64,000 nt of DNA from NCBI GenBank assembly GCA_030157785.1, contig JAOAUC010000017.1, positions 1-64,000 on the forward strand. Direction: 5' to 3'. Shown piece after piece: positions 15,535 through 43,384 of this stretch. The translations under genes were made by a program, and so were the position numbers. Positions within the stretch are counted from its first letter, which is position 1, and each line of letters starts with the position of its first letter. Under the pieces are notes generated by a model, which ran no database searches, was not told the origin of the DNA, and saw only the letters and a list, made by a program, of their open reading frames with translations. Origin of the DNA: Zoogloea oleivorans. Its GTDB lineage: Bacteria; Pseudomonadota; Gammaproteobacteria; Burkholderiales; Rhodocyclaceae.

Positions 15535-16395
15535 TTACTGGAGCAGGGACAGCACGTTGTTCGGCATGCTGTTGGCTTGGGCAACCATCGCGGTGCCGGC
15601 CTGTTGCAGGATCTGGCCGCGGGTCATGCTGGCGGTTTCCTTGGCGAAGTCGGCGTCCATGATGCGACCGCGGGAAGCCTGTGCGTTTTCAGACGCAACC
15701 TGCAGGGTCTGCACCACTGAACTGAAGCGGTTTTGTACGGCACCCCAGGTCGCACGCGCGGTGTTCAGGACGTTCAGGGCCGCATCAATTGCCGAGATGG
15801 CGGCCGTTGCGGCTGAAACGCCTGCGCTACCTTGCCCGGAGATCGTGCTGCCGCTGATGGCGCCTGCAGTGGTCGTGCCGAATGTGGCAGAGGCAAGGGT
15901 TACTGCGCTGCCGACGGTGATCGTGTCGGTGGAAGCCGTGCCGGCACCCACCTGGAACGAAAAGCCACCCGAGACTTCACTCAGGACGTTCTGCCCGTTG
16001 AACTGGGTGCCAGAAACGACGCGTGCGATTTCCTGGTTCAGCTGTTGATATTCGGTGTCAAGACTGCCCCGGTCACCGCTGCTGTAGGTGCCGTTGGCGG
16101 CCTGCACAGCCAGCTCGCGCATCCGTTGCAAGTTGTCGGTCACTGCCTGCATCGCGCTTTCAGCGGTCTGCGCCATGGAGATGCCGTCATTGGCGTTGCG
16201 GATCGCCACGTCGAAGCCCTTGGCCTGGGAGTTCATGCGGTCGGCAATTGCCAGGCCGGCGGCGTCGTCCTTGGCGCTGTTAACACGCAGGCCGGAGGAC
16301 AAGCGTTGTACTGACGTTGCCAGGCTGGCCTGGGACGTGGAAAGGTTGCGTTGCGCATTCAGCGACATCGCATTGGTGTTGATTGTGGCAGCCAT
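15535..16395 (-). CDS. fliC: Flagellin
   Basis: 286 residues, a short flagellin. The D0/D1 ends are highly conserved: INTNAMSLNAQRNLSTSQ at the start with LSSGLRVNSAKDDAAGLAIA, and ASRGRIMDADFAKETASMTR with the final ANSMPNNVLSLLQ. The variable middle (about 145-200) is small and dominated by Ser, Thr, Gly and Ala, a plausible O-glycosylation surface. AAGGAG lies 8 nt before the ATG. Two sigma-28-type promoters lie upstream. The long glycan operon on the same strand ends 290 bp upstream. Confidence 0.97.
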   Translation of the reverse strand: MAATINTNAMSLNAQRNLSTSQASLATSVQRLSSGLRVNSAKDDAAGLAIADRMNSQAKGFDVAIRNANDGISMAQTAESAMQAVTDNLQRMRELAVQAANGTYSSGDRGSLDTEYQQLNQEIARVVSGTQFNGQNVLSEVSGGFSFQVGAGTASTDTITVGSAVTLASATFGTTTAGAISGSTISGQGSAGVSAATAAISAIDAALNVLNTARATWGAVQNRFSSVVQTLQVASENAQASRGRIMDADFAKETASMTRGQILQQAGTAMVAQANSMPNNVLSLLQ

Positions 16396-16685: not shown

Positions 16686-19600
16686 TCAAGGTCCGTAAGC
16701 TGCAAACCAGCTTGCTGCATGGTTCTCGAGGATGAAGCTGTCGTGTACCCATGCTTGCAGGGTGAGTCCGGCTTCGCGCAGCGCGTCGGGCTCGGCGAGT
16801 TGTTCACGAATCGTCTTGATCCACTTTTCGGGCTCGTTGGGAAGCCGGGTTACGGGCGCGTTTTGATACGGGTAAATATCGGTGCAGATCACCGGCCAGC
16901 CCATCGCGCCGTATTCGAGCAGGCGCAGGTTGCTCTTGGCTTCGTTGAAGGGGTGGATGTCGAGGGGGGCGATGGCCAGATCGAGGTCAAGGCTGGCCAA
17001 GGCCTTCGGGTAGGCGCTGAAATCGATTTCGAAGCCGCGGGATTCGTGGACGAAGGGTTTCAGGGCCTCCGGGCACATGCCCATGAAGATCCAGTCGACC
17101 TCGTCGGCCAGGGCTTCGACCACGGAGTAGATGAGTTCCAGGTCGCCCTGGTGTTGCTGGGCGCCGGCCCAGCCGACCCGGGGCTTCTTGCGCGGCAGGC
17201 GCGGCGGCACGGCATCGCCCCATACTGCCCATTCCAGGCAGTTGGGCATGACCCGGATGTCTTCGATCATGTCGACGCACAAGTCGGCCAGCGGCCGGGT
17301 GCTGACAACGAGGCGGTCCATCAGGGCCAGATTGCGGCGCAGGCGCTGGCGCCCGTCCTTGTAGCCGGACTTGTAGAGCGGGTGCTTCTTGGGCAGATCG
17401 GTGACCAGGTCGTCGATGGTGAGAATCCGCCGGACCTTGGGCAGGTAGCGGGCGTAGTTTTCGATGGCGTCGCTCTGCGTGTCGTCGAGGGGTTGGTGCA
17501 GAACGAGGGCATCCGGCGCGGCGCGGGCGATCTCGACCGGCGAGAGGATGCGCATGGCGAAGGCCTTGGGGGACTCGCAGATCATGGTCTGGGCGAGCCC
17601 GGCCTGTCCGACGATGCGTAGTGGTGCCCGCAGGCGGTATTCGCCGGCGCCGCCGGGGACCGGGATGGCGAGGATCCGCGGCCGGTCGTGGAAGTTGAGG
17701 TCCCAGTCGGTGGGGGCGACATGCTCGGGCTTGTAGGGCTCGAGCAGGCTCAGGTTGCGGTTGTAGGCCGGGTCGTGGACTAGGCGCGGCATCCAGCGGT
17801 GGATGAGGGTTTCGTTGGCTTGCTGGGCGGCGAGCAGGTCGGTCAGCCGGCCTTCGAGCTTGCGCTGGCGGGCCGTGATGGAGACGCTGCCGTAGTGGAC
17901 CAGTGCGGAGTGGGGGGTGAAGACGATCTTGTGGCCGGCTTCGCCGGCCCGCAGGCACAGGTCGAGGGCGCCATGGACGAGCCCGAAATCGGTGGTGTCG
18001 AAGCCGTGCAGTTGCACGTAGGCGCTGCGGCGCACGAGCAGGGCCGAACCGCTGGCCGCACTGACGTTCTGGTCGCACAGGGCGCGACCCATGTAGCCGG
18101 GGTCGGAGAGCTCGAGCTGGTTGTCCCAGGGGCTGCCCGCGGTTCCGTAGAGTCCGAGGATCGAGCAGCCCTGCTGGACCCGGCCGGTTTCGGGGTAGGT
18201 GAGGCGGGGCGCGACGATGGCGACTTCGGGGCGCTGGGCGATGCTCATCAGCCGCGACAGCCAGTCGTCCTGGACGATGTGGATGTCGTTGTCGAGGAAC
18301 AGCAGGTAGTCGCCGCCGGCGGCTTCGGCGCCGGTGTTGGCGCTGCGGGACCAGTTGAATTCGCCGGGGACGGGCAGCACGCGGGTCGGATGCTTTTGTT
18401 CCGTGGCGGTCAGGCCGGCCAGGTAGCGAACGGTGTCCGGGTCGGTGCTGTCATTGTCGATGACGATGATTTCGTAGTTCGGGTAGCTGGTCCGCTCATG
18501 GAGGCTGTCGAGGAGCGGGCGCAGGTACTCTTCCCGGTCGCGGGTCGGGATGATGATGCTGACCCTGGGCGTCGCGGCCCACTTGTAGTGGATGCGGCGG
18601 GTGCCGAAGAGCGCGCCGTCGAGGACTTCGGTGTCGAGGCCGCAGCGCGCCAGATGGTCTGCGACGGCGGCTTTTTCGGCTTCGGGCTGCATGGCCCGTT
18701 GCGAGTCGCGCGACAGGTGGGCGAGCATCTGGTCGATGTGGCCGATGCTCCGCTCTCCGGTCTGGTCGAGGATGCGCAGGCTGAGGTCGTAGTTCTCGGC
18801 GCCGGTCTTGTCGCCGTAACGGCCGGCCGCCAGGAAGGCCTGTTTCTCGACGACGACGAAGCAGCCGAAGTAGGCCTGGGCACGCAGCAGGTCAAGGTTG
18901 AAGTCGGGCTTGAAGAGCGGCTGGGTGAAGCTGTCGTCGGCTTCACGGGTGTCTTCGTCGCAGTAGATGAGGCGCCAGTCGGGTTTCTCGTTGATGTAGT
19001 CGGCGACGACCTGCAGGGCCTGGGGCTCGAAGGTAAGGCCCGGATCAATGCGGGTCAGCCAGCTGCCCGGCGAGGCGGCGGCCATTTCGTCGATGACGTA
19101 GTCGATGTGGGCTTCGTCGCGCAGGGCCAGCCACTGGATGTTGGGCGTCTCGCCGAGGCCGTCGGGCGTCGGCAGGGCCGTCACGATGGTCAGCAGCCAT
19201 TCGGGGTAGAGCTGGGCGGCGAGGCTGTCGAGGGTATCGGCGAGGAGGGCTTCTTCGCCATTGCGCAGGGCAAGCAGCAGGTGGATGCCGGGGCGGGTTT
19301 TCCATTTCAGCACCATGCGCTCGGCGAGCAGCTGGGCGTCGATCTCCTGGAGGGTCTTGCGGCGGCGCCAGGTGGCGTAGCGCTGGATGGCTTCGGCCTG
19401 GACCGGATCGTCGCCGGGGAGCTTCGGGACTTCATGCACGGGCATGGCCTGGGTGGCCGTCACGAAGTGGTCGAGCTGCCCCCAGAAACGTTCTTCTGCC
19501 GCCCGGTAGGTATCCTTCATCTGGCCGACGGTGCGCTTGGCGAAGGCGATTTCTTCCGGCGAATCATTGACGGCAATGCCTTCGCGACCGATCTCCTCCT

Positions 19601-20315
19601 CACTGAGCAGGGTGCCGTTGAAGAAGGGCGAGGGTAGGAGGATGGCCGGGCAGCCGCACAGGATGGCTTCGAGCGCGATGGCGGTGGATTCGAAGCAGTA
19701 GACGGCCTCGCTACGCCGGAACAGATCGGCCATGTCCTGGTGGGACTCGGGCCATGCGGAGGTGATCAGCGTGGCTTCGGCGGCCAGTTCCGGGTAGCGC
19801 GCAAGCCCTGCCTGATGGCGCCCGGGGTAGAGCAGGACGCCGCTGCGCTGGCTGTCGAGGGGGTTGTCCAGGTTGTTGAAGACCTGGGTGTCGATGGGCG
19901 GCAGGAAGAGGATGTTGGCCTGGTCGGCACCCTCGGGCAGCACGTTGCGGCCGTAGCCGAAAACGAGTTCCGTTTCGGCGTAGGCCTTGTCGCCGCCGAG
20001 CAGCCCGGCCTTGTTGAGGACGTAGCGCACCACCGAGCCTGCCCGGCGCGGGTTGCCGGTAACGACTTCCGGATAGACGACGATCGGTTCCCGCCCGGCT
20101 TTCTTGTGACGCTCGGCGATTTCGGCGGTCAGTATCGGGGTGTCGAGTTCCGGGCTTGTCGTCGTGTTGTAGACGTAGGCCTCTTCGCCGATGCTGTTGA
20201 GGGCATGGCACAGGAGGTGCAATACCCGGATGCCGGCCGATGTGCGCCGGTAGGCCGGTGCGTCGATGTAGTACGGACGGCGAGGCTGCGAGTAGAGATG
20301 GCGCGTGGCGGACAT
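16686..20315 (-). CDS. Large multidomain glycosyltransferase
   Basis: 1209 residues, last gene of the glycan operon and nearest to fliC. Four regions can be seen. Residues 1-300 look GT-B-like (PAYRRTSAGIRVLHLLCHAL; IALEAILCGCPAILLPSPFF). Residues about 342-575 are GT2-like with YCDEDT and the PLFKPDFNLDLLRAQAYFG block. Residues about 583-810 are a second, complete GT2 fold (RVSIIIPTRDREEYLRPLL, then DNDSTDPDTV and LFLDNDI for metal binding). Residues about 895-1209 are another GT-B-like part (VGWAGAQQHQGDLELI; LRLLEYGAMGWPVICTD). It probably builds several linkages of one glycan. The acceptor (flagellin or lipopolysaccharide) is not proven by sequence. Confidence 0.85.
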   Translation of the reverse strand: MSATRHLYSQPRRPYYIDAPAYRRTSAGIRVLHLLCHALNSIGEEAYVYNTTTSPELDTPILTAEIAERHKKAGREPIVVYPEVVTGNPRRAGSVVRYVLNKAGLLGGDKAYAETELVFGYGRNVLPEGADQANILFLPPIDTQVFNNLDNPLDSQRSGVLLYPGRHQAGLARYPELAAEATLITSAWPESHQDMADLFRRSEAVYCFESTAIALEAILCGCPAILLPSPFFNGTLLSEEEIGREGIAVNDSPEEIAFAKRTVGQMKDTYRAAEERFWGQLDHFVTATQAMPVHEVPKLPGDDPVQAEAIQRYATWRRRKTLQEIDAQLLAERMVLKWKTRPGIHLLLALRNGEEALLADTLDSLAAQLYPEWLLTIVTALPTPDGLGETPNIQWLALRDEAHIDYVIDEMAAASPGSWLTRIDPGLTFEPQALQVVADYINEKPDWRLIYCDEDTREADDSFTQPLFKPDFNLDLLRAQAYFGCFVVVEKQAFLAAGRYGDKTGAENYDLSLRILDQTGERSIGHIDQMLAHLSRDSQRAMQPEAEKAAVADHLARCGLDTEVLDGALFGTRRIHYKWAATPRVSIIIPTRDREEYLRPLLDSLHERTSYPNYEIIVIDNDSTDPDTVRYLAGLTATEQKHPTRVLPVPGEFNWSRSANTGAEAAGGDYLLFLDNDIHIVQDDWLSRLMSIAQRPEVAIVAPRLTYPETGRVQQGCSILGLYGTAGSPWDNQLELSDPGYMGRALCDQNVSAASGSALLVRRSAYVQLHGFDTTDFGLVHGALDLCLRAGEAGHKIVFTPHSALVHYGSVSITARQRKLEGRLTDLLAAQQANETLIHRWMPRLVHDPAYNRNLSLLEPYKPEHVAPTDWDLNFHDRPRILAIPVPGGAGEYRLRAPLRIVGQAGLAQTMICESPKAFAMRILSPVEIARAAPDALVLHQPLDDTQSDAIENYARYLPKVRRILTIDDLVTDLPKKHPLYKSGYKDGRQRLRRNLALMDRLVVSTRPLADLCVDMIEDIRVMPNCLEWAVWGDAVPPRLPRKKPRVGWAGAQQHQGDLELIYSVVEALADEVDWIFMGMCPEALKPFVHESRGFEIDFSAYPKALASLDLDLAIAPLDIHPFNEAKSNLRLLEYGAMGWPVICTDIYPYQNAPVTRLPNEPEKWIKTIREQLAEPDALREAGLTLQAWVHDSFILENHAASWFAAYGP

Positions 20316-20324
20316 GGGCTGTGC

Positions 20325-21371
20325 TCAGGAGTGTTGATGGGGCGTGGTGCAGGCGGCGGTGAGGCGGATGGCCTGGTCGAGAGGCGTCCAGACGTCCAGC
20401 CCGAGTTCGCTGCGGGCACGGTCGATGGCGGGGATGTAGCGGGAGCGCAGGGCGTTGTCGGGCGCGCTGCGGGTGATCTGCACGGCTTGTCCGGGGCTCA
20501 GGGCGTCGCGTACGGTTTCTGCGAGTTCACGGATCGAGACGGCCCGGTCGGAGCCCACGTTGTAGGCCTGTCCGTGGGCGCCCTGGAGCAGGATCTTGAG
20601 CAGCCAGATGGCCAGGTCGGCGCCGTAGAGATAGCTGCGCAGCGGGGTGCCGTCGCCATTGACGCGGATCGGGCGGCCGGCGAGGGCGTCGCCGATGAAG
20701 TTGCCAATGGCGAAATGCCCGTTGAGGGGCAGGCCGGCGCCGACAAACGCAAAGCAGCGGGCGATGGGAATGGCAATGCCGTGTGCCAGGCCGAATTGCA
20801 CGCACCACTGTTCCGCACCGCGCTTGGCCGAGCCATAGGCGCTGTCCGGATGGGTGGCGTCGCAGGCACAGGAGGCGGACTCCGGGAGCTGTTCCATATC
20901 CGCCGGCTGCACGCCGTACACCGCCCCGGAGCTGACGTAGAGAACCCGGCTGACGCCGCTGGATACGGCATGGGCGAGGGTGTGGCGGGTGCCGAGCAGG
21001 ATGTTGTCCATGATCGCCAGCGGATCCCGGTGGGCGGCGGCGTCGGTGTCGGTGGCGGCGTGGATGAGCAGGTCGGCGGGGATGGCATCCGCAAAGCTCT
21101 TGACGTCACCCTGCACGCAGCTGACCCACGGCTGCGCGGCGAAGTAAGGTGCCATGGCGGCAAAGGCGGCCGGGTTGCGGGACAGCAGGCGCACCCGGAC
21201 GTCTACGCCGCGTTGCTGGAGCAGATCGAAGAGGCTCAGCATCCAGTAGCCGAAAAAACCGGTGCCGCCGGTGATGAACACCGTCCGGCCGGCCAGCGGC
21301 GCGGCATCCAGGTGGTCGAGCAGGGCCGTCAGGCGACCCTGGACGGACGGGCTGCGGGGATCGGGTTGCAT
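20325..21371 (-). CDS. NAD-dependent epimerase/dehydratase (extended SDR)
   Basis: 348 residues. Rossmann motif GGTGFFG (about 34-40) and catalytic YGSAK (Y-x-x-x-K, near residue 180) are intact, so it should act on a nucleotide sugar as an epimerase, dehydratase or reductase. In yersiniose-type pathways the sugar carrying a two-carbon branch is finally reduced by an SDR enzyme (YerF); this gene could fill that step, since a ThDP enzyme is in the same operon. It lies 28 bp after the NeuB-like gene and 9 bp before the glycosyltransferase. Confidence 0.85.
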   Translation of the reverse strand: MQPDPRSPSVQGRLTALLDHLDAAPLAGRTVFITGGTGFFGYWMLSLFDLLQQRGVDVRVRLLSRNPAAFAAMAPYFAAQPWVSCVQGDVKSFADAIPADLLIHAATDTDAAAHRDPLAIMDNILLGTRHTLAHAVSSGVSRVLYVSSGAVYGVQPADMEQLPESASCACDATHPDSAYGSAKRGAEQWCVQFGLAHGIAIPIARCFAFVGAGLPLNGHFAIGNFIGDALAGRPIRVNGDGTPLRSYLYGADLAIWLLKILLQGAHGQAYNVGSDRAVSIRELAETVRDALSPGQAVQITRSAPDNALRSRYIPAIDRARSELGLDVWTPLDQAIRLTAACTTPHQHS

Positions 21372-21399
21372 GGCGCTGGGCGCTCGGTAGCTGGCGGGC

Positions 21400-22491
21400 T
21401 TACAGGCCGCGGTCGTAGATCAGCTTGCGCAGCACTTCGTTCTGCGAATAGGGGCTCTCCACGTCGTCGATGGAGAGCGCCGTGTCCTTGGTCACGGGAC
21501 GGGTCAGCTTGAGGCCGTTCATCGTCTCGCGGCAGGACAACTGCCCCTTCTGCAGCGGGATGGCCAGGTAGAAGTCGTCCTCGAGGTTCTGGTGCTGCAG
21601 CTCGTAGCCGGCGGGCAGGTCGCGCTTGGCATACACGCCACGGACGAGACCGTCGAGGTATTCGGTTTCCTTCTTCTTCGGCACGCGCTTGGAGGTGCCG
21701 GTGCCGCCGCACATCTCGACGGCCTTGTGATAGGCCTTGAACCATTCGTCGATCTGGTGCGGCAGCGAGCAGTAGGGCGCCACGGGGATGCCGCCTTCCT
21801 CGATGTCGATGTGGCGCTCCCAGGTGCGGGCGCCCTTGGCATAGGAGACCAGCATCGACGAGGTCCAGTCGTGATATTCGTGGGTGGACAGACCGACGAC
21901 GTTCTTCGGGTAGCGCTGGCGCAGGAAGTCGATCTGGTTGAGCTCCAGTTCGTCGTCTTCGCTCGGGTAGATCGAGACGCAGTGATTTACCGCCAGCGGA
22001 ATGTTGCGGTTGGCGAAGAAGGTCACCATGTCATCGACGTCCTTTTGCGTGGACCCGCCGGTGGACACGATGACCGGCTTGCGCGTCTCGGCGATGCGCT
22101 CGATGAGGAACCAGTCGTTGATGTCGGAACTGGCGATCTTGATGATCGGCAGATCGAGCTCTTCGCACAGGTCCACCGAGGCTTCGTCGAAAGCGGTGGC
22201 CATCGGAATGCAGTTGCGCTCCCGGATGGCCTTCACCAGCGTCCGATACTCGGCCTTGCTGAGCCGGGTGGCCTCGGTTTTCTTGATGTAGCGGATGTCC
22301 TCGCGACCGCGGAAGTCCTTGTGGATGAAGTGGTCGGCCTCGCGGAACTGCAGCTTGATGGCGGCCCGCACATTGTTGAAACGGACCACCTGGGCGAAGT
22401 CATTGACGATGCGCAGCCCCCGGTCCATACGGCCCCAGTGGTTGTTGGCCAGTTCGAGGATGAACAGGTTTTCAAAGATGTCGTTGTTCAT
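21400..22491 (-). CDS. NeuB-family nonulosonate synthase, divergent
   Basis: 363 residues. The family condenses phosphoenolpyruvate with an aldose to make nine-carbon acids (sialic, pseudaminic, legionaminic). The barrel motifs are recognisable but shifted: ELANNHWG for the usual EIGxNHNG, IKIASSD, PVIVSTGGS, then GLSTHEY for GYSDHT and ERHIDIE for EKHFTLD. A C-terminal SAF-like domain (about 290-345, RGVYAKRDLPAGYEL) is present. No CMP-sugar synthetase (NeuA) or UDP-GlcNAc 2-epimerase (NeuC) is in the operon, so the substrate may not be a standard hexosamine. Confidence 0.85.
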   Translation of the reverse strand: MNNDIFENLFILELANNHWGRMDRGLRIVNDFAQVVRFNNVRAAIKLQFREADHFIHKDFRGREDIRYIKKTEATRLSKAEYRTLVKAIRERNCIPMATAFDEASVDLCEELDLPIIKIASSDINDWFLIERIAETRKPVIVSTGGSTQKDVDDMVTFFANRNIPLAVNHCVSIYPSEDDELELNQIDFLRQRYPKNVVGLSTHEYHDWTSSMLVSYAKGARTWERHIDIEEGGIPVAPYCSLPHQIDEWFKAYHKAVEMCGGTGTSKRVPKKKETEYLDGLVRGVYAKRDLPAGYELQHQNLEDDFYLAIPLQKGQLSCRETMNGLKLTRPVTKDTALSIDDVESPYSQNEVLRKLIYDRGL

Positions 22492-22501
22492 GATTGAGAC
22501 C

Positions 22502-23590
22502 TCAATAAGCGTAGAAGACCGCGTCGAAAGAGTTGTGGGCGTGGATCCGGAAACGCAGCCGGTAGCCCAGGTCGAGGCCGGCGATCCAGGCGGGAATGCG
22601 CCACAGATCGTCCCAGCGGTGGTAACCCGCGATGGCGAGAATTGGCCGGTTGCGGCGAATGAGGGCCTCGGCGCCGGTGAGGGCCTCGATCTCGTGGCCT
22701 TCCACGTCGAGCTTCAGGTAGCCGACGCGGCTGTTGGGCAGGCAGTCGTCGAGCCGGACCACCTGCACATGGCTGTTGCCCTCGCCGCCGAGGGTGCTGG
22801 CCTCGCCGTGGCCACCCGAAAAGGCAAGATTGCCGTTGATGGAGGACACGCCGCAGGGCAGGCACACGGTGGGCATGGGCAGCTTGCCGGCCCGTGCGGA
22901 GAGTTGCGGAAAGTTGCCGGCGTCGGGCTCGAAGGCCCAGGCTTCGCGCAGGGGCAGGTGGGCCGCGGCCTGCTCCAGGGTGTCGCCGTTGTAGGCGCCG
23001 GCATCGACGAAGCCCAGCGGGACGTGATCGATGGTAGTCAGAAAATCCGGGAAATACTGGGTGCCGGCGGCGGGGGCGTCGGCAATCGTTGCGCATGCGC
23101 CGAGCCGGAAACGCAGGATGGCGGCGAAGAAGGCACGGCTCGTTTCGTCTTCCAGACGGGCGAAGGTCGTGCGTAGCTCGCTCTCGCGGGGAGCGTAGCC
23201 GCTGCGTTCGGTGAGCCAGTAACGCCAGCCCAGCCGGGCGCTGACGATTTCAAAATAGTGCTGGGGCAGCCAGGTCTGCGTGAAGCCCGCGCCCGAGCAG
23301 GCCGCGAGGATGGCGGCGTAGTCGGCGGAGGGTTCGCGGTTGAACACGCCGATCCACAGGGGCAGGGCCGTCCAGCCTGTCGGCAAGGCCGTGAGCGGGG
23401 CAAGCGGCAGGCCGGCGCAGGTGCTGGCGGCTCCGCTGGATACGACAAAGCCCCGTACGGAAATGCCTTCGGCTTCCGCGGCGCGGTGCAAGTCCCGCGC
23501 GAAGCTGCCGCAGCCGAAGATCAGGATGCCGCTGTTGCGCGCCTGCGCGGGGGAGGCGGCCTCGAAGGCGAGGGACGGGAAGGTGGTCAC
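22502..23590 (-). CDS. FkbM family methyltransferase
   Basis: 362 residues. An N-terminal Rossmann-like part (GILIFGCGSFARDL, about 21-34) precedes the SAM-binding FkbM domain (about 190-350) with FVDAGAYNGDT and the family signature LKLDVEGHEIEALTGAE. FkbM enzymes usually O-methylate sugars or polyketides. The start ATG overlaps the ThDP-enzyme stop by 4 nt. It probably methylates a hydroxyl of the sugar made by this operon; the position methylated cannot be told. Confidence 0.87.
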   Translation of the reverse strand: MTTFPSLAFEAASPAQARNSGILIFGCGSFARDLHRAAEAEGISVRGFVVSSGAASTCAGLPLAPLTALPTGWTALPLWIGVFNREPSADYAAILAACSGAGFTQTWLPQHYFEIVSARLGWRYWLTERSGYAPRESELRTTFARLEDETSRAFFAAILRFRLGACATIADAPAAGTQYFPDFLTTIDHVPLGFVDAGAYNGDTLEQAAAHLPLREAWAFEPDAGNFPQLSARAGKLPMPTVCLPCGVSSINGNLAFSGGHGEASTLGGEGNSHVQVVRLDDCLPNSRVGYLKLDVEGHEIEALTGAEALIRRNRPILAIAGYHRWDDLWRIPAWIAGLDLGYRLRFRIHAHNSFDAVFYAY

Positions 23591-25389
23591 GGCTGGGCTC
23601 CCGGGTGCGGAAGAGCGCGAATCTGCGCCGCTTCGGCGCGCACCGCAGCGAGTTCTGCGGGTGGCAGGAAGGGGAACATGTCGTCGAGCTCCGGCGTGGC
23701 AAAGCCGCCTTCGGGCAGGGCGCGGGACTTGATGCGCGGCTCGAAGCCCGGTTCGGGATCAACGTGGGCGGCGATGAGGATCGGGCCGCGGCGAGCGAGG
23801 GCGGCGTCGAGGGCCGGCAGATCGTCCTGCGTGGCAAGGCTGACGGCGTCGAGGTCGTAGGCGCGGGCAACCAGCGCGAAATCGGGGAATTCGACGCCCG
23901 AAGCCGGTGTGGCGCCGACGATGCGGCCGAAGAAGTTCTCGTGGGTCTGGCGGATGGACAGGTAGCCGCCGTTGTCGATAAGCACGATCGCCACGTCGAG
24001 GCCGAGGGTTTTGAGGGTTTGCAGCTCCTGGATGTTCATCTGCAGGCTGCCGTCGCCGGCAAAGCACACCACCCGGCGTGTGCCGGCGGCGCGCGCGGCG
24101 CCGATGGCGGCCGGCAGGTCGTAGCCCATCGAGGCCGAGCCGGAGTTGCTGAACATGCGCTGGCCGGCCTTCAGGTGGCCGACCTGGAAGGGCAGGATGC
24201 ACGCCGAGGCGTTGCCGCAGACGATGATGTCGTCGTCACGCAGCTGGTCGAAGATGCGGCTCACCAGCGTGTAGGGGTGGATGCCGGCGCCGGCCGGCGG
24301 CGCGGTGAAGATCGGGTAGCGGGCGCGGATGTCGCGGCACCAGGCGGCCCACGGCGAGTAGTCGGGCAGCGGTGTGGTGCAGGCCTCGCCAAGGCTGTCG
24401 AGGAAGACCAGGGCGTCGCTGGTGACGCGCAGGTCGGGCTGGACGAAGGGTTTGGCGAATTCGGCCGGGTCCACGTCCACCTGGGCGATGAAGGCGTTCT
24501 TGGCGAAGCTGTCCCAGTTGTAGCTGACCTGGCGGATGTTCAGGCGCGAGCCGATGACCAGCACGAAGTCGGCGTTCTGTGTGCAGAAGTTGCCCGCACG
24601 GGTGCCGATGGTGCCGGGGCGGCCGGCGAACAGCGGGTGGTCGCTGGCGATCAGGTCGTGGGTCCAGGCGGTGACTACCGGGATGCCGTGGGCTTCGGCG
24701 AAGGCCAGCAGGGCCTTGTCGGCGCCGGCCAGACGCACGCCGGTGCCGGCCAGGATGAGCGGCCGGTGGGCCTGGCGGAGCTGCTCGACGATCTGCTGGC
24801 AGTTGTCAGCCAGATCAGTGGGAGCGCTGGCGGCGGGCAGGACCAGCGGCGCAATCGCGTCGCATTCGGCCGACTGCACGTCGAGGGGAATATCGAGCCA
24901 CACCGGGCCGGGGCGACCGCCGATGGCGGTGGCCAGCGCGCGGGGCAGCAGGTCGATCAGGGCTTCGGGGCTGGCGACGCTTTCGGCCAGCTTGGTCACT
25001 GGTTTGGCCATGGCGACGACCGGCCCTTCCTGGTCACCCAGCTGGCGCAGGCCGGCCACGGGGGTGTAGTCGAGGCAGGTGGCGCGCTTGACCTGGCCGC
25101 CGATGACGAGCATCGGGATCGAGTCGGTGAAGGCGCCGAACACGCCGTTGAGGGCGTTGATGCCGCCGGGGCCGGTGGTGACCATGACCACCGCCGGCTT
25201 GCCGGCGATGCGCGCGTAGCCTTCGGCGGCCATCGCGCAGGCCTGCTCGTGGTGCATGAAGGTGCAGGTCAGGCGCGGATGGCTGGCGAGGGCCTGGTTC
25301 AGGTACATGGCGCCACCGCCGGTGACGGTGAAGACCTGCTCGATTCCATGGTCGGCCAGCCAGTCGGCGATCCGTTCGGAAACTTTCAT
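23587..25389 (-). CDS. ThDP-dependent enzyme of the acetolactate synthase family
   Basis: 600 residues with the three-domain ThDP layout. The catalytic Glu is in HHEQACAMAAEGYAR (about 46-60), and the ThDP-Mg motif begins GDGSLQMNIQEL (about 445) and ends DNGGY, with NG where the usual motif has NN. The operon also makes a CDP-4-keto-3,6-dideoxy sugar, so the best-fitting precedent is YerE, which adds a two-carbon acetyl branch to such a sugar in yersiniose A synthesis. Housekeeping acetolactate synthase is less likely, because no small subunit or ilvC is nearby. It overlaps both neighbours by 4 nt. Confidence 0.82.
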   Translation of the reverse strand: MKVSERIADWLADHGIEQVFTVTGGGAMYLNQALASHPRLTCTFMHHEQACAMAAEGYARIAGKPAVVMVTTGPGGINALNGVFGAFTDSIPMLVIGGQVKRATCLDYTPVAGLRQLGDQEGPVVAMAKPVTKLAESVASPEALIDLLPRALATAIGGRPGPVWLDIPLDVQSAECDAIAPLVLPAASAPTDLADNCQQIVEQLRQAHRPLILAGTGVRLAGADKALLAFAEAHGIPVVTAWTHDLIASDHPLFAGRPGTIGTRAGNFCTQNADFVLVIGSRLNIRQVSYNWDSFAKNAFIAQVDVDPAEFAKPFVQPDLRVTSDALVFLDSLGEACTTPLPDYSPWAAWCRDIRARYPIFTAPPAGAGIHPYTLVSRIFDQLRDDDIIVCGNASACILPFQVGHLKAGQRMFSNSGSASMGYDLPAAIGAARAAGTRRVVCFAGDGSLQMNIQELQTLKTLGLDVAIVLIDNGGYLSIRQTHENFFGRIVGATPASGVEFPDFALVARAYDLDAVSLATQDDLPALDAALARRGPILIAAHVDPEPGFEPRIKSRALPEGGFATPELDDMFPFLPPAELAAVRAEAAQIRALPHPGAQP

Positions 25390-26588
25390 GGGCGTTCGGT
25401 GATGAAGTGAAGGTTGCGGGTGTGTCCGGGTTCAATACGGCTGATTTCTGCCGCGATTTGATGGGGGTTTACGGCCACGCAGACCAGAACTTGTGCCTCT
25501 GGGTGACGACGTAGTCCCTCGGCAGGGGAAACGACGGGCTTGCCAGCAAAAATCTGCCCCTGCTTGTTGGGGGCTCCGTCGAGAAAGGCCACAACCCGGG
25601 GCAGCGGAATGGCGTTTTGCCCGAGCAGGCGCTGGGCCCACGAGCCGGCGCCCCACACCAGCAACGATGCGGCCGGACCGAGGGGCGGCTGGATCGACAC
25701 GCTGTCGGCGGCGCGGCGGGCGCTGTCGGCGATGTAGGCGCGCAGGCCATCCAGCATGTCGGGGCCGGCTTCCGGTGCGTGGGCTCCCGGCGTGGCGCGG
25801 GCGACGCCGGCGAAGGCCGGGTAGGTGCTGCCGTCGGGCAGGCTCAGGGTGCAGTCGACAAAGGCGGCGGGTGCCAGCCCGGCCGACGCGAACAGCCGGG
25901 CCAGTGCCCGCGGGCTGAAGTGGTTGATGTGCTCGCTGTCGAAGTAATAGAAGGGTGGCCGTGGCCCGCAGCGGTAGCCGCGCGGGTCGGGCACCTCGAC
26001 GTACAGGGCGCCATCGGGGGCGAGCAGGCCGGCCAGTTGCGGCAGCCAGTCGAGATCGCGCAGGTGCTCGGCCACATGCGACAGCACGATCATGTCGAAG
26101 CGTTGCCCGGCGTAGCGCGAAGGGGCGTCGCTGATGAGGCCTTCCTGCACGACAAGGCCGTGGTTGCGGGCGGTGAGAACGGCGGCCGGGTCGGGGTCGA
26201 GCCCTTCGATGCGGGTGTAGCCGCGGGTGGCCAGTGCGGCGAGGAGACCGCCAGCGCCGCAGCCCAGGTCGAGCAGGCGGGCGTCGGGCCCGGGCAGCCA
26301 GGTTTCGATGCGCGTGGCGAGTTGTTTCAGGCGGAGCAGGTCGGCCGGATTCTGACCCGCGCCGGTGCCGGTCGGCCCGCCGTACTTGGCGAGGCTCCGG
26401 TAGTAGTGGTCGTAGGCCGACTGGGGAGCCGGCGTGTCGGCGAAGGCGAAGTCGCAGGCCTTGCAGGCGACAAGACGATAGCCGTCGGGCAGTGGCGAGC
26501 CGCTGGGTTGGGGCAGGGCCAGGGGCGCCAGCGTCTCCAGCGTGCGGCTGGCGCACACGGGGCAGGGGCGGTGGAGGGCGGCGGCCAT
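25386..26588 (-). CDS. SAM methyltransferase with Zn-ribbon start (sugar C-methyltransferase type)
   Basis: 400 residues. The N-terminus has two CxxC pairs (CPVC near 9-12 and CKAC near 41-44), a rubredoxin-like zinc knuckle. A class I SAM domain follows, with LLDLGCGAGGLLAAL (about 98-112) and FDMIVLSHVAEHL. A C-terminal Rossmann-like part starts near 300 (LLVWGAGSWAQRLL). This three-part build is typical of C-methyltransferases that act on keto-deoxy sugars such as TDP-sugars. It lies between rfbH and the ThDP gene, so a CDP-keto sugar is a fitting substrate. Confidence 0.83.
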   Translation of the reverse strand: MAAALHRPCPVCASRTLETLAPLALPQPSGSPLPDGYRLVACKACDFAFADTPAPQSAYDHYYRSLAKYGGPTGTGAGQNPADLLRLKQLATRIETWLPGPDARLLDLGCGAGGLLAALATRGYTRIEGLDPDPAAVLTARNHGLVVQEGLISDAPSRYAGQRFDMIVLSHVAEHLRDLDWLPQLAGLLAPDGALYVEVPDPRGYRCGPRPPFYYFDSEHINHFSPRALARLFASAGLAPAAFVDCTLSLPDGSTYPAFAGVARATPGAHAPEAGPDMLDGLRAYIADSARRAADSVSIQPPLGPAASLLVWGAGSWAQRLLGQNAIPLPRVVAFLDGAPNKQGQIFAGKPVVSPAEGLRRHPEAQVLVCVAVNPHQIAAEISRIEPGHTRNLHFITERP

Positions 26589-26603
26589 GGCGGGCTTTCT
26601 GAC

Positions 26604-27968
26604 TTACAGGCCGACGCCCAGGAATTGCCCGATGAGTTCGGCGCTGTAGTCGAGCTGGGCGTCGGTGAGCCCCGGCCACACGCCGATCCAGAAGGTGTCG
26701 CGCATGATGCGGTCGGCCACCGGCAGCTCGCCGACGACGCGGAAATTGCGTCCGGCCATGGAGGGCTGGCGGGTGAGGTTGCCGGCGAACAGCAGGCGGG
26801 TGCCGATCTTGTGCTGGTCGAGGTACTGCAGCAGATCGACCCGATTGACGCCGGCTTCGGGCTTCAGCGTGATGGGGTAACCGAACCACGACGGATCGCT
26901 GCCGGGAGTGGCTTCGGGCAGGACCAGGAAGTCGCGGCAGTCGGCCAGCTTGTCGGTGAGGTAGGCGAAGTTGCGCTTGCGGGCTTCGATGAAGCCTTCC
27001 AGCCGGTCGAGCTGGGCGAGGCCACAGGCGGCCTGCATGTCGGTGATCTTCAGGTTGTAGCCGATGTGGCTGTAGGTGTACTTGTGGTCGTAGCCGGGCG
27101 GCAGGCTGCCCAGCTGCCAGCCGAAGCGCTTGCCGCAGGTGTTGTCGCAGCCGGGCTTGCACCAGCAGTCGCGGCCCCAGTCGCGGAAGGATTCGGCGAT
27201 CTGGCGCAGGGTCGGGTCGCTGGTGAGCACCGCGCCGCCCTCGCCCATGGTGATGTGGTGGGCAGGGTAGAAGGACAGTGTGGCGAGGTGGCCGAAGGTG
27301 CCGACCTTGCGGCCTCTCCAGGTGGAGCCAAGCGCGTCACAACAGTCTTCGATCAGCCACAGGTCGTGGGCCTTGGCAAAGGCGCAGACAGCATCCAGGT
27401 CGAAGGGGTTGCCGAGGGTGTGGGCGATCATGATCGCCTTGGTGCGCGGCGACAGGGCGGCTTCGAGCATGGCCACGTCGATGTTGTAGCCGGGCAGGGT
27501 GGCGTCGACAAAGACCGGCACGGCGCCGTTCTGGAGGATCGGATTGACGGTGGTGGGGAAGCCGGCGGCGACGGTGATGACTTCATCGCCGGGCTGAATG
27601 GCGCGGGCGCCGAGCTTGGGCGAGGTGAGCGTCGAGAAGGCCACCAGGTTGGCCGACGAGCCAGAGTTGACGGTGAGGGCGTGGGCCACGCCGACAAACT
27701 TCGCCAGGCGTTCCTCGAAGGCGTCGTTGAAGCGCCCGGTGGTGAGCCAGGCGTCCAGTGCCGCGTCGATCATCGCGTCTTTTTCGGGGTCGCCGACCAC
27801 CTTGCCGGAGGGCGGTACGGCGTCGATGCCGGGCCGCCATGCCTGCGGGGCGGAGGCGCTGCGGGCCGGGCGGACGATGACTTCGAGCTCCTGGCCGGCG
27901 AGTTCCGGCAGGTCGAGCTGGAGGCGGCCGGCGGCGTCGGGGGTGAGGGTCTGGCGGATCAGGCTCAT
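26604..27968 (-). CDS. rfbH: CDP-4-keto-6-deoxyglucose 3-dehydrase (RfbH/E1)
   Basis: 454 residues. This PMP and [2Fe-2S] enzyme removes the C3 hydroxyl from CDP-4-keto-6-deoxyglucose on the way to 3,6-dideoxyhexoses. The diagnostic change of the PLP-binding Lys to His is present in [17 protein letters not shown]. The cysteine cluster motif is also present ([17 protein letters not shown]), both characteristic of E1 rather than of ordinary DegT/DnrJ aminotransferases. The ATG overlaps the rfbG stop (ATGA). The E3 reductase that normally supplies electrons is not in the window. Confidence 0.93.
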
Positions 27969-29020
27969 GAGGGGCTTCCGAAGGCGGCGATTTCGTCGAG
28001 GGTGTAGGTATGCATGTCGGCACCTTTGCGCCAGGCTTGATACCAGTCGAGGCTGCGGGCTACCGCCGTTTCGGCCGGCCAGCGGGGCTGCCAGCCCAGG
28101 CGCGCCCGGGCCTTGCTGCAGTCGAGCTTGAGGATGTGGGCTTCGTGCACCTGGGCTTCGGCGGACACGGCCCAGCGGGCGTCAGGGCACCAGGCGGTGG
28201 CGAGCTGCTCGACGACCCAGGCGACGGTCTTTGCATCGCTGTCGGCGGGGCCGAAGTTCCAGCCTTCGGCCCAGGATTCGCCTTCTTCGACCAGCTTTTG
28301 CGCCAGGCTCAGGTAGCCGGACAGGGGCTCAAGCACGTGCTGCCAGGGGCGGATGGCGCCGGGGTTGCGCAGGGTGACGGGCGTGCCGGCGGCAAAGGCG
28401 GCCAGCACGTCGGGCACCAGCCGGCTGGCGGTCCAGTCGCCGCCGCCAATCACGTTGCCGGCACGGGCGCTGGCTACGGCGACGCCTTGCGCGGCGAGGA
28501 AGGACCGGCGATATGAGGCAACGATCAGCTCGGTGCAGCCCTTGCTGGCCGAGTAGGGGTCGTGGCCGCCCATGGGGTCGGTCTCCCGGTAGCCCTGATC
28601 CTGTTCGCGGTTCTCGTAGCACTTGTCGCTGCTCACTACGACCACCGCCTTGATGCCCGGCACGTGGCGGACGGCTTCGAGCAGATGCACCGTGCCCATC
28701 GCGTTGGTGGCAAAGGTGTCGACCGGCTCGGCGTAGGACAGGGGCACCAGCGGCTGGGCGGCCAGATGCAGGACGATCTCGGGGCGGGCAGCCGCCATGG
28801 CAACGGCAAGGGCGGCGTAGTCGCGCACGTCGCCGATCGTGGAGGTCATGCCCCTGGCGACGCCAGCTACCTCGAAGAGCGCCGGGGTGGTGGCCGGGGC
28901 GAGGGCGTAGCCCGAGACTTCGGCGCCCATGGCCTGCAGCCACAGGCACAGCCAGCTGCCCTTGAAGCCGGTGTGGCCGGTGACGAAAACCCGCCGGCCA
29001 CGCCAGAAGGCCGGATTCAC
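27965..29020 (-). CDS. rfbG: CDP-glucose 4,6-dehydratase
   Basis: 351 residues from the GTG at 29018-29020, which overlaps the rfbF stop as GTGA; a GTG four codons earlier is also possible. The enzyme oxidises C4 and dehydrates C5-C6 of CDP-glucose to CDP-4-keto-6-deoxyglucose. The sequence starts [20 protein letters not shown] with the NAD-binding [10 protein letters not shown] motif; [17 protein letters not shown] and the catalytic [10 protein letters not shown] (Y-x-x-x-K) follow. It is the second step of the CDP-sugar route between rfbF and rfbH. Confidence 0.94.
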
Positions 29021-29787
29021 CAGGTTTTCCACGGCGCCGTTCCGTTGTTCCACATTTCTTCCAGGGTGGTCTTGTCGCGCAGGGTGTCCATGGGGCGCCA
29101 GAAGCCGGTGTGCTGGAAGGCGACGAGCTGGTCGCGGGTGATGAGCTGATTGATCGGCCCGGCTTCCCAGATGCATTGGTCGTCGTCGATCAGCTCGAGC
29201 ACGCTGGGCGACAGGACGAAGAATCCGCCGTTGATGAAGCCGCCGTCGCCGAGGGGTTTTTCGACGAAGGCGCTGACCGAGTCGCCGTTGAGTTCCAGAG
29301 AACCGAAGCGCCCCGGCGGCTGGACGGCGGCCACCGTGGCGGCCTTGCCGTGGGCCCGGTGGAAGGCGATCTGGGCCGAGATGTCGATGTCGGCCACGCC
29401 GTCGCCGTAGGTGAAGCAGAAGGCGTCTTCGTCCTGCAGGTACTGGCGCACCCGACCGAGGCGGCCGCCGGTCTGGGTGGTGTCGCCGGTATCCACGAGG
29501 GTGACGCGCCAGGGTTCGGCGTGGCGCTCGTGGATTTCCATGCGGTTGTTGGTCATGTCGAAGGTGACGTCCGACATGTGCAGGAAGTAGTTGGCGAAGT
29601 ACTCCTTGATCACGTAGCCCATGTAGCCGCAGCAGATCACGAAGTCGTGAATGCCGTGGCTCGAATAGATCTTCATGATGTGCCAGAGAATGGGGCGCCC
29701 GCCGATACCGATCATGGGTTTCGGGCGGTTTACGGTCTCTTCACTGATGCGGGTGCCCAGGCCACCCGCGAGGATCACGGCTTTCAT
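29017..29787 (-). CDS. rfbF: Glucose-1-phosphate cytidylyltransferase
   Basis: 256 residues, normal length. It makes CDP-glucose from CTP and glucose 1-phosphate, the entry step to CDP-dideoxyhexoses. The nucleotidyltransferase signature GGLGTRISEETVNRPKPM begins near residue 8, followed by GGRPILWHIMKIYSSHG and the FTYGDGVADID metal-binding block. It is the first gene of the nine-gene operon; the ATG is at 29785-29787. A G-quadruplex motif and homopolymer tracts lie 43-82 bp upstream. Confidence 0.95.
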   Translation of the reverse strand: MKAVILAGGLGTRISEETVNRPKPMIGIGGRPILWHIMKIYSSHGIHDFVICCGYMGYVIKEYFANYFLHMSDVTFDMTNNRMEIHERHAEPWRVTLVDTGDTTQTGGRLGRVRQYLQDEDAFCFTYGDGVADIDISAQIAFHRAHGKAATVAAVQPPGRFGSLELNGDSVSAFVEKPLGDGGFINGGFFVLSPSVLELIDDDQCIWEAGPINQLITRDQLVAFQHTGFWRPMDTLRDKTTLEEMWNNGTAPWKTW

Positions 29788-29897: not shown

Positions 29898-30521
29898 TCA
29901 GCGGGCTGACGGGAACTGGGGCGGGGTGGCGCCGCAGGCGATGTAGTCTGCGTCGCTCATCACCGGCTTGAACTCGCAGGGGGCGGACGGGGCGCGCTGG
30001 CTGTCAGTGAGTTTGGCGAAGCGCGGGTCGGCGGGGCGGCTGGTGATTTCTGCCGGGGCGGCTCCGCTGCGCGTCGGGCGGCCGGCTTCGAAAGTCATGG
30101 CCGTGCCGGCGGGCAAGGGGGCGCCGTTGGGCGTGTCGTAAGCGGAGGGCGCCGGTGTGGGGGCGTCGTGCTCGCGGGCGGCGTTGCGGCGCTGGGCGGC
30201 TTCGATGCGGGAGCGGACAAGGAGCGCGCTGCTTGCGTCCGGCCAGTTGACGTGGCCCTGCATGCTCGCGCGGCTTGCCGGAAGGGCCACGTGTTCGATC
30301 GGGTAGGGCGGCCGGTCGGTGGGTTCGGTGCTGCGGGCTGACGGCGAGGCGCTGTAGCTGGTGTGGGCTGGCGGGCTTGAATGGGTGGAGATGGAGCGGC
30401 TCACGCCGCTGCTGTGCCCGCCTCCAAAGCGGCGTGCCTGCGCGGGGGCCGGGTCGAGCAGTGCCCCGCTGGTCAGGATGGCGAGGGCGATCAGGGCGTT
30501 GAGCGGGGTGGTTTGGGGCAT
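29898..30521 (-). CDS. Hypothetical exported protein
   Basis: 207 residues; family not recognised. A signal peptide (about 1-29, ending AQA-R) is followed by a Ser/His/Gly-rich and then Pro/Ala-rich low-complexity region and a short C-terminal part with two Cys (PCEFKPVMSDADYIACG), which could form a disulfide in the periplasm. The last segment looks more structured than the rest. It lies on the same strand as the glycan operon but 110 bp upstream of rfbF, separated by the G-rich tract. Confidence 0.65.
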   Translation of the reverse strand: MPQTTPLNALIALAILTSGALLDPAPAQARRFGGGHSSGVSRSISTHSSPPAHTSYSASPSARSTEPTDRPPYPIEHVALPASRASMQGHVNWPDASSALLVRSRIEAAQRRNAAREHDAPTPAPSAYDTPNGAPLPAGTAMTFEAGRPTRSGAAPAEITSRPADPRFAKLTDSQRAPSAPCEFKPVMSDADYIACGATPPQFPSAR

Positions 30522-39023: not shown

Positions 39024-39056
39024 AGCTTTGAGGCTGCGGGCCGTTCACCACGCGTG

Positions 39057-42482: not shown

Positions 42483-43384
42483 GCGTGGCGAAGATTCTGG
42501 TGGTGGACGATGAGCCGTTCAATCTGGATATCGTCGGGGAGTACCTGGACGAGATGGATTTCGACCTGGTGATGGTGGAGTCGGGTGAGGCGGCCTGGGA
42601 TGCGTTGTGCGAGCCCGAGTCGAACTTCGATCTGGTTCTGCTCGACCGCATGATGCCGGGCATGGACGGCATCATGCTGCTCCGGAACATCAAGGCCGAC
42701 GAGCGGCTGCGATCGATCCCGGTGATCATGCAGACAGCTGCCACGTCGCCCGAGCAGGTTCGCGAGGGGCTGGCGGCCGGAGCGTTCTACTACCTGACCA
42801 AGCCTTTCGAGGGCGAGGCACTGCAGACCATCATTCGCTCTGCCCTCGACGACATGCGTACGCGGCGCGAGCTGAATGCCAATCTGGCAGGTCACGCCCA
42901 CGCGCTATCGTGCATCACCCAGGGAGAGTTCTCCATCCGCACCCTTGAGGAGGCGCGGTCGCTGGCATCTTTCATTGCCCTGCTGGGGCCGCAGCCGGAA
43001 ACCCTGGCCATGGGCTTGTCGGAATTGCTGGTGAATGGCGTGGAACACGGCAACCTGGGCATCGACTTTGCCGAGAAAAGTCGCCTGCGCGAGGCCGATC
43101 GGTGGGAGGAGGAGGTTGCCCATCGCCTGGCCCTGCCCGAGAACCGGCGCAAGGCGGTGCGTCTGCGGGTGCGCGGCGATGAGACCCGCTGGGTGTTCGA
43201 GATCAGCGATGACGGGTCGGGCTTCGACTGGCGGCGTTTTCTCGATTTCGATCCGGAGCGCGCCTTTGCGCCCAACGGACGCGGCATTGCCCTGTCGCGC
43301 CAGCTTTCCTTTGATAGCCTGACTTATCTGCCTCCGGGAAACCAGGTCGTGGTGACCGTTGTAAAGGGCGGGGGCCGGTCGTGA
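42479..43384 (+). CDS. Receiver-HATPase regulator (RsbW-like output), copy 2
   Basis: 301 residues, starting within the kinase stop (ATGA). A complete receiver (1-125: VVDDEP, phosphoacceptor Asp56 in LLDRMMPGMDG, Thr in MQTAAT and Lys in LTKPFEG) is joined to a GHKL ATPase of the RsbW/SpoIIAB type: SELLVNGVEHGNLG, DDGSGFD and NGRGIALSRQL. A phosphorelay would therefore control a serine-kinase or anti-sigma activity. Its likely substrate, a STAS-domain anti-anti-sigma protein, is not encoded in the window. The downstream PP2C protein could reverse its action. Confidence 0.88.
   Translation: MSVAKILVVDDEPFNLDIVGEYLDEMDFDLVMVESGEAAWDALCEPESNFDLVLLDRMMPGMDGIMLLRNIKADERLRSIPVIMQTAATSPEQVREGLAAGAFYYLTKPFEGEALQTIIRSALDDMRTRRELNANLAGHAHALSCITQGEFSIRTLEEARSLASFIALLGPQPETLAMGLSELLVNGVEHGNLGIDFAEKSRLREADRWEEEVAHRLALPENRRKAVRLRVRGDETRWVFEISDDGSGFDWRRFLDFDPERAFAPNGRGIALSRQLSFDSLTYLPPGNQVVVTVVKGGGRS

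Follow-up and report, generated by a model that had tools for sequence, protein, structure and literature searches.

A recurring pair of NeuB-family synthase and thiamine diphosphate enzyme genes in a glycan operon beside flagellin in Zoogloea oleivorans, and its predicted role in building branched dideoxy sugars

We analyzed a stretch of 64,000 nucleotides from Zoogloea oleivorans (GenBank assembly GCA_030157785.1, contig JAOAUC010000017.1, positions 1 to 64,000; the window, below), which carries a nine-gene glycan operon followed by the flagellin gene fliC. Two of the nine genes are the main subject here, one for a phosphoenolpyruvate (PEP)-dependent synthase of the NeuB family and one for a thiamine diphosphate (ThDP)-dependent enzyme of the YerE kind. 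An earlier, sequence-only reading of this DNA had regarded the combination of these two chemistries as an unusual mixture. The comparisons described below show that the two genes are a recurring pair in many distant bacteria, and the pair is most likely a repeated module that provides the donor-making step for branching at C4 of a dideoxy sugar. The operon genes, in their order along the minus strand, and fliC are as follows, with cytidine diphosphate abbreviated as CDP.

29017..29787, minus strand: rfbF, glucose-1-phosphate cytidylyltransferase (TIGR02623 equivalog, 467 bits, cut-off 300)
27965..29020, minus strand: rfbG, CDP-glucose 4,6-dehydratase, GTG start at 29020, 4-bp overlap with rfbF (TIGR02622 equivalog, 490 bits, cut-off 278)
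26604..27968, minus strand: rfbH, CDP-4-keto-6-deoxyglucose 3-dehydrase (NF011936 equivalog, 728 bits, cut-off 423)
25386..26588, minus strand: class-I S-adenosylmethionine methyltransferase with a cysteine-rich N-terminus (PF13489, 4e-21; cysteine motifs from the sequence)
23587..25389, minus strand: predicted ThDP-dependent carboligase of the YerE/ErwE/JanthE kind (three thiamine pyrophosphate domains; 8rph, 3.5e-99)
22502..23590, minus strand: FkbM-family methyltransferase, GTG start (TIGR01444, 64 bits, cut-off 37.7)
21400..22491, minus strand: NeuB-family PEP-dependent synthase (PF03102, 5e-38)
20325..21371, minus strand: short-chain dehydrogenase/reductase (SDR; NAD-dependent epimerase/dehydratase, PF01370, 2e-30)
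16686..20315, minus strand: GT2 glycosyltransferase of 1209 aa (PF00535, 1e-25)
15535..16395, minus strand: fliC, flagellin and likely acceptor protein, outside the coordinates of the sequence-only reading (PF00669/PF00700)

The open reading frames (ORFs) and the domain and equivalog scores agreed with the nine genes and the gene order that had been proposed for positions 16686-29787, with all nine on the minus strand. Four of the eight gene joints are 4-bp overlaps, and the other four are spaces of 9-28 bp. The start of rfbG is most likely the GTG at 29020 and not the start of the longest ORF at 29176. The sole large gap, of 290 bp, separates the end of the glycosyltransferase gene from the start of fliC, which is followed by flaG and then by fliD and fliS, so that the operon indeed lies beside the flagellin genes. 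By their spacing, the nine genes appear to be packed like a single transcript, as had been claimed. A scan with promoter consensus sequences revealed no sigma-70-type site, and terminator-like sites were no commoner than in shuffled sequences; the case for co-transcription is therefore the spacing.

RfbF, RfbG, and RfbH all scored above the curated equivalog cut-offs, so that CDP-4-keto-3,6-dideoxyglucose is a safe prediction, in agreement with the CDP-3,6-dideoxy-4-ketohexose assigned earlier. The first methyltransferase had been named a Zn-ribbon C-methyltransferase. The cysteine-rich N-terminus is present, but a domain search with E-values up to 0.1 found neither PF08421 nor PF08484, and this name is thus not established. 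The nearest public relatives of the operon are from Zoogloea; in a second Z. oleivorans record (L041; fetched loci are numbered with L, genomes with G) the proteins are 90-98% identical gene by gene, with 57% for the FkbM methyltransferase. Records from Zoogloea and other Zoogloeaceae contain relatives of the whole operon (L041, L042, L044, and L046), and the same gene order is kept in Pseudomonas (L058 and L097, and likewise L071, where the first methyltransferase gene is missing). Therefore, the gene set is not a chance assembly.

For the pairing, 80 loci from titled genome records were fetched by NeuB similarity alone; they represent the best 80 of 542 relatives. A YerE-like ThDP gene was present in 74 of these 80 loci, on the same strand as the NeuB gene in 73, and the distance between the two genes had a median of 1.0 kb and a maximum of 4.5 kb. 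Four of the six loci lacking a ThDP gene are contigs of less than 5 kb. A relative of the SDR (more than 150 bits) was found in 38 of the 80 loci. The record titles include proteobacteria, cyanobacteria, Bacteroidetes, Planctomycetes, Acidobacteria, Verrucomicrobia, Myxococcales, and Elusimicrobia, and many of the records are metagenome bins. The NeuB-ThDP combination is thus not the one-off mixture that it had appeared to be.

We also analyzed a family-level sample of 199 genomes, in which a NeuB of this wider type was counted at 190 bits or more, a ThDP enzyme at 320 bits or more, and RfbH above its cut-off. In this sample, 26 genomes were NeuB-like, 11 of them (including the Z. oleivorans genome itself) without and 15 with a fused cupin domain. 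RfbH was present in 24 of the 26, versus 15 of the other 173 genomes (Fisher p 1e-18), and the ThDP enzyme in 23 of the 26, versus 5 of the 173 (Fisher p 3e-22), both without correction for relatedness. A tblastn search recovered the ThDP gene in one more of the 26 genomes (G084, L036), and the last two lacking it are G014, with a 4.6-kb contig, and G109. Conversely, RfbH was also present in 25 of the 28 genomes with a ThDP enzyme; in Z. oleivorans RfbFGH are encoded in the same operon. The neighbourhood survey of RfbH, ThDP enzyme, and NeuB that had been proposed beforehand therefore did find co-occurrence. In a phylum-level sample of 398 genomes, 13 had the NeuB-like synthase, 19 the ThDP enzyme, and 11 both, compared with 0.6 expected. 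The two genes are at most about 1.1 kb apart in 8 of these 11 genomes, Z. oleivorans among them, and in the remaining three they are on different contigs of fragmented assemblies. The sequence distances of the two proteins were also correlated among loci whose matched stretch contains no stop: Spearman's coefficient for NeuB and the ThDP enzyme was 0.45 (70 loci), and the partial rank correlation was 0.38 given RfbH, versus 0.04 for NeuB and RfbH given the ThDP enzyme (37 loci).

The NeuB-family synthase scored far below the equivalog cut-offs of the known synthases (115 versus 399.65 bits for NeuB and 115.9 versus 340.25 bits for PseI). Its predicted structure (predicted local distance difference test score of 91.8) matched the fold of 3g8r best, followed by sialic acid and pseudaminic acid synthases. 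We compared 15 positions of the active site of the Neisseria NeuB (NmNeuB), taken in part from PMC6795526. Counts refer to 97 of 98 sequences (L030 was left out), with some genomes represented by two loci. Thirteen of the 15 positions are invariant across the 97 proteins, including the PEP- and metal-binding residues (K53, T110, K129, S132, S154, S213, H215, and H236 of NmNeuB, 97 of 97). The two that differ are the position of Asn184, which is Ser, Ala, or Gly, and that of Arg314, which is Ile or Val in 89 proteins (Ile311 here) and Phe in 8. Arg314 positions the N-acetyl group of N-acetylmannosamine in NmNeuB, and its Ala mutant is inactive (PMC6795526).

The NeuB proteins were divided by identity, length, and domain make-up, not by a tree, into the group of the Z. 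oleivorans protein (61-97% identity, no cupin) and a cupin group (about 35-44%). The latter has a C-terminal fusion to a cupin resembling D-lyxose/D-mannose isomerase. Domain searches verified this cupin in 3 proteins, and alignments or full-length matches did so for the rest. A fusion to an isomerase of this type would be expected if a free aldose were made in place, and together with the loss of Arg314 it points to a neutral aldose as the acceptor. The NeuB-cupin proteins are about 500 aa long, and their genes frequently lie between those for RfbH and the ThDP enzyme (L032:9917-11422, L031-L039, and L128). A plasmid search with NeuB yielded 85 records, all below 60% identity, with 25-30% among the matches listed.

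Nonulosonic acids are used as cytidine monophosphate (CMP) sugars, and their NeuB genes therefore usually lie near a CMP-sugar synthetase gene. We searched 50 genomes for the synthetase family PF02348 and counted a gene as near within 20 kb. A synthetase was near 36 of 43 ordinary NeuB-family hits (excluding one short NeuB fragment, G056:C620), versus 1 of the 26 NeuB-like hits, a contrast somewhat weakened because 6 of the 26 genes are on contigs shorter than 18 kb. Seven ordinary hits lack a near synthetase, and in four of them such a gene lies 20.6-37 kb away. The seven include two ordinary NeuB genes beside a ThDP enzyme (G031 C26 and G170 C265). The sole NeuB-like hit with a near synthetase is the NeuB-cupin of G109, which lacks ThDP and RfbH genes and has the synthetase directly adjacent (L131); no other NeuB-like locus on a long contig in the family sample is without a ThDP gene. 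Two further NeuB-cupin genes without a ThDP gene were found in the phylum sample (G436 and G247), and a CTP_transf_3 protein is encoded close to the one in G436 (L146). Next to NeuB, the ThDP gene and the CMP-sugar synthetase gene thus behave largely as alternatives. No CMP-sugar synthetase gene was found on contig C17, and the single PF02348 gene of the Z. oleivorans genome (assembly 87% complete), a strong match on another contig, is presumably that of the 3-deoxy-D-manno-octulosonic acid (KDO) enzyme. Taken together, the assignment to the NeuB family (PF03102) stands, but the nonulosonate-type role read into it probably does not: a CMP-nonulosonate pathway is rejected, or at least weakened, by these counts, the protein scores below the NeuB and PseI equivalog cut-offs, and Arg314 is replaced.

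As separate observations, genome G170 has a second NeuB gene, with Arg314 kept, that adjoins a second, more distant ThDP enzyme gene (L126:6044-9012), at a distance of about 3.4 kb from its main pair of NeuB-cupin and ThDP genes, and an apparent cytidylyltransferase near the ThDP genes of L147 and L148 was discarded, as only the C-terminal, phosphatase-like part of the query matched.

The best solved relative of the ThDP enzyme is 8rph (336 bits, compared with 224 bits for acetolactate synthase isozyme 1 and 214 bits for 5ahk, which we take to be the Pseudomonas YerE), and with 312 bits it remains below the acetolactate synthase equivalog cut-off of 538. The protein is thus predicted to have the three-domain fold of the acetohydroxyacid synthase type and to be kin to the YerE-like ketone ligases, not a true acetolactate synthase. 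8rph is JanthE from Janthinobacterium sp. HH01 (PMC12188165), so that the family named in the sequence-only reading was correct, although the closer relative is JanthE and not 5ahk. JanthE has a CDG motif where GDG is found here. The donors reported for the family differ: YerE uses pyruvate, ErwE rejects pyruvate in favour of longer 2-oxo acids with a 4-hydroxyl group, and JanthE takes short and long 2-oxo acids (PMC12247030); the physiological substrates of JanthE are described as "not yet identified" (PMC12188165). Near more distant ThDP relatives without the RfbFGH set, a transketolase-like gene was observed in L123 (3569-5622), with a look-alike in L125 (13749-15883); the domain search for PF02779 was run on L123:4564-5622 only, and these clusters probably belong to a different pathway.

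We examined 13 ThDP loci of genomes that lack this NeuB: L121-L124 and L127 in the family sample and L137-L144 in the phylum sample (five and eight loci, respectively). In 8 of these 13 genomes another 2-oxo-acid maker is encoded nearby. Four have an aldolase of the HpcH/HpaI type, identified by Pfam in L121, L137, and L140; in L139 it was detected by tblastn alone, and the match is interrupted by a stop. The L137 protein is barely above the Pfam cut-off, yet 58% identical to that of L121. Three clusters with RfbH and a ThDP ligase contain genes for a 4-hydroxy-2-oxovalerate aldolase (TIGR03217) and an acetylating acetaldehyde dehydrogenase (TIGR03215), both above the equivalog cut-offs (L141:3164-5051, L142:11777-13703, and L143:11977-13919), a pair that is usually catabolic; L142 also carries an HpaI-type aldolase. 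In L122 (9882-11849), an ordinary NeuB is fused to a xylose-isomerase-like TIM barrel (PF01261), has Ser at the Arg314 position, and is accompanied by the ThDP enzyme, a GHMP kinase with a CBS domain, and rfbFGH. No NeuB domain of any kind was found in 3 of the 7 genomes searched, including the aldolase genomes G017 and G361. Aldolases and NeuB-type enzymes of these families make 2-oxo acids with a hydroxyl group at C4, that is, the kind of donor reported for ErwE. The strongest pointer to the role of NeuB is that the place next to this ligase is taken, in different clusters, by a NeuB, by either of two aldolase types, or by a fusion of NeuB with an isomerase.

The missing CMP-sugar synthetase, the altered acceptor pocket, and the aldolase swaps together suggest that the ThDP step receives its donor from NeuB. 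We consider it likely that NeuB makes a keto acid that is not CMP-activated, that the ThDP enzyme uses it to add a branch, and that the resulting sugar is methylated and placed on flagellin. RfbF, RfbG, and RfbH would produce CDP-3,6-dideoxy-4-ketoglucose, the likely product, and the NeuB-family enzyme would condense PEP with an aldose to a free 3-deoxy-2-ulosonic acid. The ThDP enzyme would decarboxylate this acid and join the remainder to C4 of the CDP sugar, yielding a CDP-3,6-dideoxyhexose with a long polyhydroxylated branch at C4, similar in kind to caryophyllose or erwiniose and unlike yersiniose, whose branch has two carbons. Reduction of the ketone in the branch, a YerF-like step, would fall to the SDR, both methyltransferases would methylate the branched sugar, with O-methylation predicted for the FkbM enzyme, and the 1209-aa glycosyltransferase would transfer it to flagellin. 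The acceptor aldose, the order of the reactions, the product, and flagellin as the target are what we infer from the gene content. The chemistry could well hold more generally, and we lean towards a widespread, so far unrecognised class of NeuB-family enzymes that make 3-deoxy-2-ulosonic acids as acyl-anion donors for YerE/JanthE-type ThDP ligases and not for CMP activation. In that case, how long the C4 branch is and how it is patterned would depend on the keto-acid maker encoded beside the ligase, be it NeuB, a NeuB-isomerase fusion, an HpcH/HpaI aldolase, or a DmpG/DmpF pair. The earlier observation is thus confirmed, and its interpretation was half right and partly supported: the branched, methylated deoxy sugar and flagellin are retained, but not NeuB chemistry as a separate ingredient.

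Several results weigh against this reading. The pairing counts were not corrected for relatedness, and two loci of substantial length, L096 (19.7 kb) and L115 (12.8 kb), have NeuB without a ThDP gene; the NeuB-cupin of G247 (L145, 14.6-kb contig) has neither a ThDP nor a CMP-sugar synthetase gene. Only 43 of the 80 NeuB loci showed RfbH (more than 250 bits), partly owing to short contigs or to an RfbH gene 16-17 kb away (G151, G001, and G018), and some NeuB-ThDP clusters may use another sugar. No other 2-oxo-acid maker was found near 5 of the 13 ThDP genes without this NeuB (L123, L124, L127, L138, and L144); of these, L127 is a 5.4-kb contig, L138 is from a genome that is 57% complete, and RfbFGH were not seen in L123 or L144. 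Pyruvate is also a substrate of JanthE in vitro (PMC12188165). No recurring gene for making the acceptor aldose was identified among the annotated ORFs in the loci of this NeuB group, so that the acceptor aldose is a guess; the largest unlabelled clusters besides operon genes and flagellar neighbours look by eye mostly like shadow ORFs.

Known systems share several of the proposed steps. The yersiniose A pathway of the Yersinia O-antigen (DdhABCD, YerE, and YerF) has the same CDP-3,6-dideoxy-4-ketoglucose, made by the RfbF/G/H steps, and a ThDP carboligase of the same family, and the SDR described here could be the counterpart of its reductase; it differs in that YerE and pyruvate generate a C2 branch (PMC12247030). 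The yersiniose set of Pseudomonas WCS417, located to the O-antigen, is given as ddhA-D, yerE, and yerF, and no NeuB is named in the relevant passages of PMC4509608. For the present operon, the NeuB-ThDP pairing and the pattern of swaps argue indirectly against yersiniose with pyruvate as the donor. The erwiniose pathway starts from the same CDP sugar, to which ErwE couples 4-hydroxy-2-oxo acids of greater length than pyruvate; the donor-making gene is not named in the accessible text of PMC12247030, in contrast to the NeuB-like gene here and the aldolase in related clusters. Caryophyllose has a 1,3,4,5-tetrahydroxyhexyl branch at C4 of a 3,6-dideoxyhexose (PMC5706390), and its pattern of hydroxyl at 1', CH2 at 2', and hydroxyl at 3' is what a decarboxylated 3-deoxy-2-ulosonic acid would leave. 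A YerE-like enzyme (MMAR_2332) is also shared with the caryophyllose system of the Mycobacterium marinum lipooligosaccharide, which differs in that the sugar is borne on a lipid and not on flagellin, and for which neither a role of NeuB nor any statement on a NeuB in the caryophyllose cluster was found in the available parts of PMC5706390, PMC13354803, PMC4403928, PMC12507525, PMC12395582, and PMC4703794. Compared with NeuB/PseI-type nonulosonate synthases, finally, the fold and the PEP- and metal-binding residues are shared, and the replaced Arg314, the lacking CMP-sugar synthetase partner, and the low family scores are different.

Evidence on the target comes from the flagellin end of the cluster. 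The large glycosyltransferase gene and fliC follow the cluster in five Zoogloea/Zoogloeaceae loci (L041-L044 and L046) and three Pseudomonas loci (L058, L071, and L097), and both are present in another order in L093, L098, and L109. In a genome labelled as the same genus (G133), rfbFGH are 80-90% identical, the glycosyltransferase 66%, and fliC 80%, and fliD is kept, but the cassette between rfbH and the glycosyltransferase gene encodes a NeuB-cupin and another ThDP enzyme. In G036, rfbFGH and most of the glycosyltransferase (72% over residues 254-1209) are kept, with an SDR gene between them, and the contig ends short of fliC. A sugar cassette that changes while the flagellin end stays favours flagellin as the target, and the glycan genes and the glycosyltransferase gene adjoin fliC in an arrangement conserved in relatives, as in a flagellin glycosylation island. 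The central 60 residues of the Z. oleivorans FliC include 21 Ser/Thr. The same branched sugar might instead be made for lipopolysaccharide or another surface polysaccharide, with fliC as a mere neighbour, considering that fliC or fliD lies within the fetched stretch in just 13 of the 80 NeuB loci and that known sugars of the YerE type are components of lipopolysaccharide or lipooligosaccharide (PMC12247030); in view of the flagellin end retained in G133 and the three Pseudomonas loci and of the glycosyltransferase kept in G036, we regard this as unlikely.

A smaller chance is given to two separate sugars in one glycan, a yersiniose-like, C2-branched one made from pyruvate by RfbFGH and the ThDP enzyme and a nonulosonic acid made by NeuB and CMP-activated by an enzyme encoded elsewhere. 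Pyruvate is a donor for YerE (PMC12247030) and JanthE (PMC12188165), and NeuB does retain its PEP and metal residues. However, the sole PF02348 gene of the incomplete Z. oleivorans assembly is on another contig, synthetases are near most ordinary NeuB genes and near just one of the 26 of this type, and NeuB tracks the ThDP enzyme too closely for an independent pathway. That the ThDP enzyme is a plain decarboxylase that releases a 2-deoxy aldose from the NeuB product, with no branching of a CDP sugar, would agree with the several 2-oxo acids used by JanthE (PMC12188165) but is very improbable, because the linkage of the pair to RfbH and the ketone coupling demonstrated for YerE and ErwE (PMC12247030) favour carboligation.

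If donor synthesis by NeuB proves true, the sialic-acid-synthase fold would have a further function, the supply of a keto acid whose decarboxylation serves to build carbon branches. Natural donors would be predicted for ThDP enzymes studied for tertiary alcohols, and JanthE would gain a physiological donor. Modular branch building would explain sugars of the caryophyllose and erwiniose types, branch structures in surface and flagellin glycans could be predicted from genes, and flagellin glycans could change through the swap of one cassette. Genes of this type labelled as NeuB would need re-annotation, as by the present counts they do not signal sialic-acid-like sugars.

The claim that the pathway had not been described agreed with our searches of open-access papers, with subscription papers and preprints outside their scope: no paper was found with yerE and neuB together as whole words, or with flagellin, glycosylation island, and acetolactate synthase, and for RfbH and flagellin glycosylation only a clostridial prediction was found, in which an island with RfbF, G, H, and S was read as making paratose (PMC13317340). 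Enterobacterial flagellin glycosylation islands likewise have genes for CDP-4-keto-6-deoxyglucose near flagellin (PMC4875605). The word "thiamine" is absent from the texts of both papers.

Directly upstream of rfbF, the window contains a 207-aa ORF (29898-30521) without a Pfam match, and ORFs that resemble it by eye are present at the equivalent place in two loci of the same genus (L132 and L040). Further away (39054-43384), the gene for a large CHASE-PAS sensor histidine kinase precedes one for a response regulator that contains an ATPase domain.

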